The translations under genes and the position numbers were made by a program. A stretch of DNA of 64,000 bases from Aeromicrobium yanjiei (GTDB lineage: Bacteria > Actinomycetota > Actinomycetes > Propionibacteriales > Nocardioidaceae), in the NCBI RefSeq assembly GCF_009649075.1, contig NZ_CP045737.1:682001-746000 (forward strand). Direction: 5' to 3'. Shown piece after piece: positions 49,642 through 50,785 of the stretch. Numbering within the stretch: position 1 is the stretch's first letter; every line of letters starts with the position of its first letter. Below the pieces are notes generated by a model, which searched no databases, was not told the origin of the DNA, and saw only the letters and a program-made list of their open reading frames with translations.

Positions 49642-49825
49642 GTCGTCAGCCTGCCCGCGTCGTCGTGCCGGGCCAAGCCACCGTCCACAGCGGCGCTGTG
49701 GACGTCGGTCGACCCGTGGGGACGCGCCGCGACTCGCCGAGGGGTTTTTGGCCGCTCCGAGCGTGAAATGCCACCGTCGCACCTATGCTGACAGTGATCA
49801 GCACCACATCGGCAAGGAGGCCGCA
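49642..49825. other. Divergent intergenic region with inverted repeat
   Basis: Contains GTCCACAG, five bases, CTGTGGAC (49683-49703), which also gives two DnaA-box-like 9-mers. A TATGCT -10-like box at 49784-49789 serves the small zinc-ribbon gene. No open frame of its own is convincing. Confidence 0.6.
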
Positions 49826-49984
49826 ATGTCGGAAACATGGAGTGGCGAGTTCTACTGCGTCAAGTGCAAGGAGAAGCGCGAGACGTCCGGAGAGGTCCAT
49901 GTCAGTGACAAGGGCACTCGCATGGCCAAGGGCGTCTGCCCGGTCTGTGGCACCAAGCTGAACCGGATTCTCGGCAAGGCCTGA
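49826..49984 (+). CDS. DUF5679 zinc-ribbon small protein
   Basis: A 52-residue protein with two Cys-x2-Cys pairs, YCVKCKEKRE near residues 10-19 and VCPVCGTKLN near 37-46. These should bind one zinc ion. It matches the DUF5679 family of short treble-clef-like proteins. The ATG follows GGCAAGGAGG, an almost perfect ribosome site. It is divergent from the cyclodehydratase-like gene and ends 42 bases before a strong terminator, so it is monocistronic and probably highly expressed. Function unknown. Confidence 0.9.
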   Translation: MSETWSGEFYCVKCKEKRETSGEVHVSDKGTRMAKGVCPVCGTKLNRILGKA

Positions 49985-50026
49985 ATCCACCAGTGGGGCC
50001 CCGCGCCCCGCACTTCCCCCACTCTT

Positions 50027-50058
50027 GCGGAGGACCCGGCACCGGCCGGGTCCTCCGC
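50027..50058 (+). terminator. Terminator hairpin after DUF5679
   Basis: GCGGAGGACCCGGC and its complement form a perfect 14-bp stem around the tetraloop ACCG at 50041-50044. Confidence 0.85.
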
Positions 50059-50106
50059 ACCTGTGTGCACCCGGCGGGGGTCCACGTCAACCTCTGGATC
50101 GAACCG

Positions 50107-50260
50107 TTGTCCACCGCTTGTGGACAACTCTGGGGACAAGTTGTGGGGAACGCCGAGCGAGCCTGTGGACGAAGCGGTGCACAACCTGTGCGGTGAGCGG
50201 GCGCGGGTGGCAGTGCGTGGTGCGTGAGCAGGACTTTCGGCCGGACCCGCCTGTGGACGC
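50107..50260. other. Cluster of DnaA-box-like 9-mers
   Basis: Relative to the actinobacterial DnaA box TTGTCCACA: TTGTCCACC (50107, one mismatch), TGTGGACAA (50119, perfect on the minus strand), TGGGGACAA (50131, one), TGTGGGGAA (50142, two), TGTGGACGA (50164, one), TGTGGACGC (50252, two). The first four start 12, 12 and 11 bases apart and the fifth 22 further, about one helical turn each. The rest of the 309-base gap from 49985 holds the terminator and the promoter of the next gene. Confidence 0.6.
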
Positions 50261-50293: not shown

Positions 50294-50785
50294 ATGGGCG
50301 AGGTGGAGATCCGGCGCAGCGACCGGCGCAAGCGCACGGTGCGGGCGTACCGCGAGGGCGGCAGGACCATCGTGCTGATGCCGGCGCACCTGTCCAAGGC
50401 CGCCGAGGACGAGCACGTCCGCAACCTCGTGGAGCGGCTCGACCGCCGCGAGCAGCGGGTGCGCCCCAGCGATGACGAGCTGATGGCCCGGGCGGCTGCC
50501 CTGTCGCAGTCCTGGTTCGGCGGCCGGGCGGTCCCGTCGTCGGTCCGCTGGGTCACCAACATGGACAAGCGATGGGGCTCGTGCTCGAGCTCGGACCAGA
50601 GCATCCGGCTGTCCCACCGGCTGCAGGGCATGCCGGCGTACGTCGTGGACTACGTGCTGGTGCACGAGCTGGCGCACCTGATCGAGCCCAACCACAGCCG
50701 CCAGTTCTGGGCGCTGGTCAGCGCCTACCCGGAGACGGAGAAGGCGAAGGGATTCCTCGAAGGCGTCTCGTGGCAGCAGCGGTGA
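50294..50785 (+). CDS. YgjP/SprT-like zinc metallopeptidase (DUF45)
   Basis: A 163-residue minigluzincin-type protein. The zinc motif is VHELAHLIEPNHSRQFW (HExxH near residue 118-122 with the third ligand His about 9 residues on). It is preceded by WGSCSSSDQSIRLSHRL, which is characteristic of the YgjP/WSS1-like group. The N-terminal strand segment RTVRAYREGGRTIVLMPAH fits the family. No export signal. The last 68 bases overlap the convergent Nudix gene. Its substrate is unknown; relatives act on DNA-protein crosslinks or as general peptidases. Confidence 0.87.
   Translation: MGEVEIRRSDRRKRTVRAYREGGRTIVLMPAHLSKAAEDEHVRNLVERLDRREQRVRPSDDELMARAAALSQSWFGGRAVPSSVRWVTNMDKRWGSCSSSDQSIRLSHRLQGMPAYVVDYVLVHELAHLIEPNHSRQFWALVSAYPETEKAKGFLEGVSWQQR

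Follow-up and report, generated by a model that had tools for sequence, protein, structure and literature searches.

A conserved, helically phased DnaA-box array away from oriC: probably a control region for adjacent promoters, most commonly that of a small structured RNA

Why should a tight row of DnaA-box-like sites be kept in intergenic DNA far from the origin of replication? The question is raised by positions 50107-50260 of the window, the whole 64,000-nucleotide stretch analysed, which covers positions 682001-746000 of a 3.63-Mb contig in a 3.68-Mb Aeromicrobium genome. The first-pass annotation had reported there a cluster of such 9-mers, one of them perfect, away from oriC, and had offered three functions for it: titration of DnaA, its reactivation, or a DnaA-regulated promoter. 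Our results suggest that this conserved, helically phased array is probably a control region for adjacent promoters and that its commonest client is a small structured RNA. The last of the three functions is thus the best fit; the commonest promoter, however, is the leftward one of the small RNA, which is intact in most relatives, degenerate here and invisible from the window itself. The array is not oriC, since dnaA lies at position 601 of the contig (C2:601), 0.73 Mb away (20% of the contig), and the adjacency to dnaA/dnaN that would mark a replication origin is lacking.

At a tolerance of two mismatches the array comprises seven sites, six of them on the minus strand. A leading plus-strand site, TTGTCCACC (50107-50115, one mismatch), opposes the direction of the other six: the perfect box TTGTCCACA (50119-50127), TTGTCCCCA (50131-50139, one mismatch), the weak site TTCCCCACA (50142-50150, two mismatches), TCGTCCACA (50164-50172, one mismatch), the weak site TTGTGCACC (50176-50184, two mismatches), and GCGTCCACA (50252-50260, two mismatches), which lies 34 bp ahead of a YgjP-like metallopeptidase gene. 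The starts are 12, 12, 11, 22, 12, and 76 bp apart, as the annotation had it, and an extra palindromic overlap match falls at 50118 in the same scan. The window overall is not enriched in boxes (77 found versus 88.9 expected at up to two mismatches); its densest 155-bp stretch, the one here, holds eight matches, and the next separate stretch holds three. In sixty second-order Markov simulations of the window the densest stretch held 2 to 4 matches at this threshold, against the observed 8, and 0 to 2 against the observed 4 when one mismatch was allowed. The genome-wide count that had been proposed, at up to one mismatch, yielded 267 box matches versus 215 for the backward word, and by a rough Poisson estimate four boxes within 66 bp are expected 8e-5 times in the whole genome. 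The pattern TCCACA-N0-30-TCCMCA-N0-30-TCCMCA matches only the array and C2:484028-484096 genome-wide, with none for the backward control; the second place, the only other such triple in the genome, carries CTCCACA-type words. Unrelated to the array, repeats around CGACTCGTCAC and CGTCCGTACG were noted in the same genome near 2.324 Mb (locus L006, 1400-1625). The clustering of boxes is beyond chance: many near matches do occur in a GC-rich genome, but a chance cluster is contradicted by the simulations and the triple pattern, as well as by the conservation in the genus and the enrichment in 17 families described below, and can practically be dismissed.

The word itself, with R as its third letter, and the head-to-tail arrangement in steps of 11 to 12 bp fit what we take to be the DnaA-box consensus (near TTRTCCACA). 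The box words of the array are also present around dnaA of the same genome, and the DnaA encoded there bears the RDHTTV signature. In the genus the first two boxes are arranged as an inverted repeat, as might suit a protein other than DnaA; given the agreement in word, degeneracy, and arrangement, such a reader of the 9-mers appears very improbable.

Conservation was read in the genus through the YgjP-like gene, which has clear orthologues in 42 of 49 genomes, using the best 30 of the 42 orthologue loci, the window's own included. All 30 carry four to nine boxes (up to two mismatches) within 330 bp upstream of the gene, mostly in shared order and spacing; the leading plus-strand box, 11 to 12 bp ahead of the next, is present in 29 of the 30, the TGTGGA of the site at 50164-50172 is kept in the alignment, and many loci have a box at about -40 to -50 from the gene start. 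The second box reads TTGTCCACA in some loci and TTATCCACA in others, an alternation that is presumably the degeneracy expected of DnaA boxes. Because the boxes align as blocks while the DNA around them varies, the objection that boxes might be unconserved within conserved flanks fails. The proposal that a phased DnaA-box cluster off oriC is under selection here is supported both by these 30 loci and by the enrichment in 17 independent families.

The array sits between a DUF5679 gene (49826-49984, plus strand; Pfam PF18930, E 1.4e-14), whose 3' end faces it here, and the YgjP-like gene (50294-50785, plus strand; Pfam PF01863, E 3.5e-26), its usual divergent neighbor. A hairpin with further 9-mers had been placed at 49683-49703. 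A palindrome does exist at 49681-49705, GTCCACAGC-GGC-GCTGTGGAC, in the gap that separates the DUF5679 gene from its neighbor on the left; its exact arms are absent in six relatives, and we left it out of the array.

What lies on the far side of the boxes became apparent from the relatives. In the direction away from the YgjP-like gene, most of them show promoter-like TTGAC and TAnnnT words and, behind these on the same strand, a hairpin whose loop resembles GCAAGGGGAAGGC. The predicted RNA would be about 60 to 90 nt long, with a GGGGAAG loop and a terminator-like stem of its own at its end. A first model, R1, from 28 seed copies gave a covariation-supported stem; the seeds were picked for the exact loop GGGGAAGG, so its presence in all 28 sequences of alignment A1 is by construction. 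In a wider alignment of 53 model hits, changes on both sides were seen at 21 of 21 pairs, and 93.4% of cells were paired, versus 78.9% after shuffling and 34 to 53% after sliding; G-U cells exceeded A-C cells (62 versus 23), which favors the modeled strand. The loop GGGGAAG occurs in 53 of the 53 and AAGGGGAAG in 50, in sequences retrieved by a model into which the loop had been built. The candidate thus displays the compensatory stem changes by which a structured RNA is recognized. That the hairpin might instead be a mere bidirectional terminator and no RNA gene would be in keeping with its strong GC stem, its U-rich end in many copies, and its place beyond the ends of neighboring genes; a terminator would not, however, be expected to hold a GGGGAAG loop across many families, to show a strand-specific G-U excess, or to follow a promoter-like pair at a near-fixed distance, and we regard this reading as improbable.

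R1 at an E value of no more than 0.05 found the RNA in 128 of 393 genomes of the class, with one match each, and in 51 of 122 genera, some weak matches possibly being false (that at locus L212 lacks the loop); the other two thirds of the class genomes gave no match. A single match per genome even in genomes of 1.2 to 1.4 Mb suggests that the RNA is important. Within the genus, 31 of 49 genomes matched at E values of up to 1, 27 of them with E below 0.003; of these 27, 25 adjoin the YgjP-like gene and two belong to genomes in which no such gene was found, and the four weaker matches, situated elsewhere, were dropped. The model detects the RNA at 21 of the 30 loci read in the genus. A search of the phylum gave matches in 13 genomes, one of them of the genus, and seven of the others have, by reading or script, the loop and a promoter-like word. 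In the other classes, seven loci have the loop, six of these with boxes; L300 has the loop and no boxes, two matches (L295 and L296) have no loop, and two more (L299 and L301) lie outside the inspected set. A scan with a descriptor, run on 57 loci of which almost none had a model hit, found one of the seeds (L112) and, in family f19, a locus that the models had missed (L303, 1500-1760), where an extended form with loop CCGGGGAAGGC and a longer stem follows a box array beside a YgjP-like gene. Three loci of family f17 (L198, L199, and L200) match with loop AAGGGGAAGC and altered closing pairs and have no boxes upstream; the putative RNA can therefore occur without the array. None of the 4,227 models of Rfam 15 matched at the RNA when 20 loci, 19 of them with the RNA, were scanned, and only chance matches arose elsewhere. 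Our literature searches, in the parts of the sources they reached, returned no description of the RNA or the locus, and the portions of PMC3411110 and PMC3765725 available to us make no mention of such a locus.

All 65 RNA loci scanned have, 12 to 18 bp before the stem, a TAnnnT word preceded at 17 or 18 bp by a TTG-like hexamer, the scan having required TAnnnT and a spacing of 15 to 20 but not the narrow distance from the stem; the -35-like words are TTGAC in 49, TTGAT in 9, another TTG word in 6, and ATGGCA in 1. Upstream of the RNA, 146 boxes point with it and 20 against it, and they gather at about -63, -74, -85, -107, -118, and -130 from the predicted start, with a period of 11.0 to 11.25 bp (vector strength 0.69 over 124 positions). 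Related sequences inflate such counts and periodicities, and some of the fetched loci are near-duplicates; in 29 hand-picked loci of 28 families, about one per family, at least one box was found in 28 and at least two in 27, the direction was 82 versus 9, and the period was 11.0 with R of 0.67, versus a random 99% level of 0.32. Across 47 RNA loci of 17 families outside the first model (L212 excluded), 100 boxes lie in 16.9 kb upstream versus 23 in 103 kb elsewhere in the same loci, or 5.9 versus 0.22 per kb, a 26-fold difference measured against mostly coding DNA; at least two boxes are present in 31 of the 47, and the backward word gave 6 versus 23 matches (0.35 versus 0.22 per kb). Against DNA that is likewise mostly coding, box density was 6.4 upstream versus 0.22 elsewhere across all 70 RNA-hit loci read from the 128 of the class (the 30 best and 40 for breadth of families, L212 included), 12 of which have no upstream box at up to one mismatch, including 6 of 12 in the streamlined family f23 and 3 of 4 in f17. 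An unbiased word count, scored as a ratio with a pseudocount and with L212 included, ranked TGTCCACA as the top 8-mer (33 of 64 loci versus 0.63 expected) and GTCCACA as the top 7-mer; words bearing TGTGGAC led the 9-mers, and TTGTCCACA itself occurs in 16 loci versus 0 expected. Boxes at a fixed phase to a promoter, as expected of a DnaA-regulated promoter, are thus seen in the relatives that have the RNA, whereas the RNA promoter of the window has no -10 element.

From this arrangement we infer a mechanism in which DnaA, probably as an oligomer, would line up head to tail on strong and weak boxes spaced by about 11 bp, which start about 53 to 63 bp upstream of the predicted RNA start. Strong boxes joined by weaker TCCCCA forms at steps of 11 to 12 bp resemble arrays on which DnaA oligomers form, and boxes from about -63 outward would lie at an activator's distance. 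The small RNA would be made from the TTGAC-17/18-TAnnnT promoter, which is sigma70-like; DnaA would most likely activate it and, less likely, repress it, and the level of the RNA would then track DnaA activity or the replication cycle.

In the window itself only traces of the predicted RNA gene could be read. On the minus strand, a remnant -35 word, TTGACG, lies at 50085-50090, recognized by reading against the consensus of the RNA loci; the place of the -10 element (50062-50067) reads CACACA rather than the TAnnnT of RNA-bearing relatives, and no promoter was found there by script; and a remnant of the loop, GCAAGAGTGGGGGAAGTGC where relatives have GCAAGGGGAAGGC, is found at 50010-50028 with its stem disrupted, by reading and folding. 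A strong terminator-like hairpin predicted by folding occupies 50027-50058 in place of the 5' arm. The closest relative (G002) resembles the window in keeping the -35 word and in the strong hairpin that replaces the 5' arm, and the -10 place reads CACACA or GAACAA in the two. None of the models found the RNA at the locus, and R1 gave no match in the window's genome apart from a weak one on the other strand (E 6.9). A match of a second model, R2, at C2:536728-536782 (E 0.003) is short and fits both strands; it was taken for a terminator and discarded. As far as these readings and folds indicate, the -10 element and stem of the RNA have decayed in this species while the array remains.

The window is not alone in this respect. 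In nine of the 30 genus loci, those of the window and of the closest relative included, the RNA was not detected although three or more boxes with no more than one mismatch are kept (L057, L058, L068, L073, L074, L075, L082, L083, and L084); the words of the RNA promoter remain in L068 and L075 and were not found in the other seven. By reading, the 3' end of the DUF5679 gene occupies the place of the RNA in L068. Two Geodermatophilus loci (L041 and L046), again by reading, have the array and a -10-like word, TAGCGTT, directly before the DUF5679 gene, about 290 to 480 bp upstream of the YgjP-like gene, and no RNA; the array may have changed clients there. Since nine genus loci keep boxes without a detected RNA and the Geodermatophilus boxes precede the DUF5679 gene, the RNA is not all that the array is linked to, and because boxes persist where the RNA is undetected, the array must also have another client, be a sink for DnaA, or outlive the RNA. 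In the window's species the likeliest options are that it acts on the YgjP-like gene, serves as a DnaA sink, or outlives its client; its survival in nine loci without the RNA makes a mere relic, in our judgment, the least likely of the three roles.

Regulation of the divergent YgjP-like gene could, on one account, be the main function of the array wherever it occurs. The last box precedes that gene closely in the window and in many genus loci, the gene adjoins the array in all 30 (by design of the search), and the arrays that lack the RNA stay beside it. By reading, however, the boxes in a second genus of the family lie about 1.1 to 1.3 kb from the YgjP-like gene, before a PHP-domain-like gene that stands between, and array and RNA persist in L185 and L188, whose arrays are not faced by a YgjP promoter, and in L195, where the array is faced by the end of the YgjP gene. 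The RNA is the constant partner of the array in these three loci and in the second genus, and we consider it unlikely that the array mainly serves the YgjP-like gene.

Because the array survives in the nine genus loci without the RNA, there is also room for datA-like titration or DARS-like reactivation. A datA-like site would titrate DnaA or promote the loss of DnaA-ATP and so restrain initiation, with the RNA as a neighbor or a read-out. Four boxes in 66 bp of the array, versus three in the dnaA-dnaN gap of the same genome (up to one mismatch), would suit such a site, as would the RNA-less arrays and the chromosomal position: the distance of the array or RNA from dnaA is 20 to 34% of the chromosome in 15 genomes of family f1, 12 to 19% in eight of f23, and 39 to 41% in two of f2 (25 of the 37 genomes with a located dnaA; the window's genome was placed by its array and G002 was estimated from its YgjP gene). 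The part of PMC4585315 available to us attributes to B. subtilis and S. coelicolor clusters of DnaA boxes close to oriC that repress initiation at the wrong time, and it describes datA and DARS, which the array resembles in its origin-proximal position. Gene-order conservation is confounded with this position, however, and could by itself explain it, and titration needs neither directional phasing to a promoter nor frequent pairing with one RNA. Titration is accordingly a possibility that we take seriously but hold to be the less probable one, and control of adjacent promoters is our preferred reading.

How does the locus compare with known systems? A DnaA-box cluster outside oriC was reportedly found in Streptomyces coelicolor by Smulczyk-Krawczyszyn et al. 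in 2006, and no RNA is known to have been reported with it. Compared by description, that cluster shares with the array its actinobacterial DnaA boxes outside oriC; no RNA was detected at two Streptomyces YgjP loci, which have one box (L037) and two boxes (L039) at the YgjP gene. The E. coli datA and DARS sites, as far as the available text of PMC4585315 describes them, are likewise noncoding DnaA-box sites at a conserved relative distance from oriC, but the boxes here are in phase with an RNA promoter. The accessible part of PMC8203912 lists sda among DnaA-regulated genes; as at B. subtilis sda, DnaA at a promoter region would link expression to DnaA, a link that is predicted here, whereas what is controlled here would be a structured RNA that occurs across much of a phylum. 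CcnA of Caulobacter crescentus, in the part of PMC8959179 available to us, is a small RNA gene with weak DnaA boxes inside that acts in the cell cycle; by this description it is 182 nt long, carries CtrA boxes, and is located at the origin, and thus differs in position and architecture. None of these systems, as described in the portions of the sources at hand, is the same thing.

As to what the RNA would act on, we looked for targets of its loop. The reverse complement of the loop, CCTTCCCCTT, was searched in 14 genomes (13 of f23 and one of f35); the RNA gene is its only site in 8 of the 14, and the other sites number 12 versus 11 for the backward control, so that no conserved 10-nt target emerged. 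CTTCCCC near the dnaA-dnaN gap was dropped: 6 of 9 genus loci have it, among them the two closest RNA-less ones, and few other loci do. The lack of a conserved perfect 10-nt loop target makes a protein partner or a short pairing likelier. It is tempting to speculate, with more doubt than confidence, that the locus is an ancient RNA-based branch of the control of replication in Actinomycetota, in which DnaA oligomers on the phased array would switch on a single-copy structured RNA that would bind a conserved partner through its GGGGAAG loop and feed the replication state back to initiation, division, or growth.

DnaA regulates protein genes and is bound at clusters away from the origin. An array spread over much of a phylum with a small RNA as its commonest partner would be a new output of this initiator, and the pairing hints that many Actinomycetota may couple an RNA signal to their DNA replication. 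The repeated absence of the RNA beside a surviving array within one genus provides natural experiments that separate the jobs of the array from those of the RNA.
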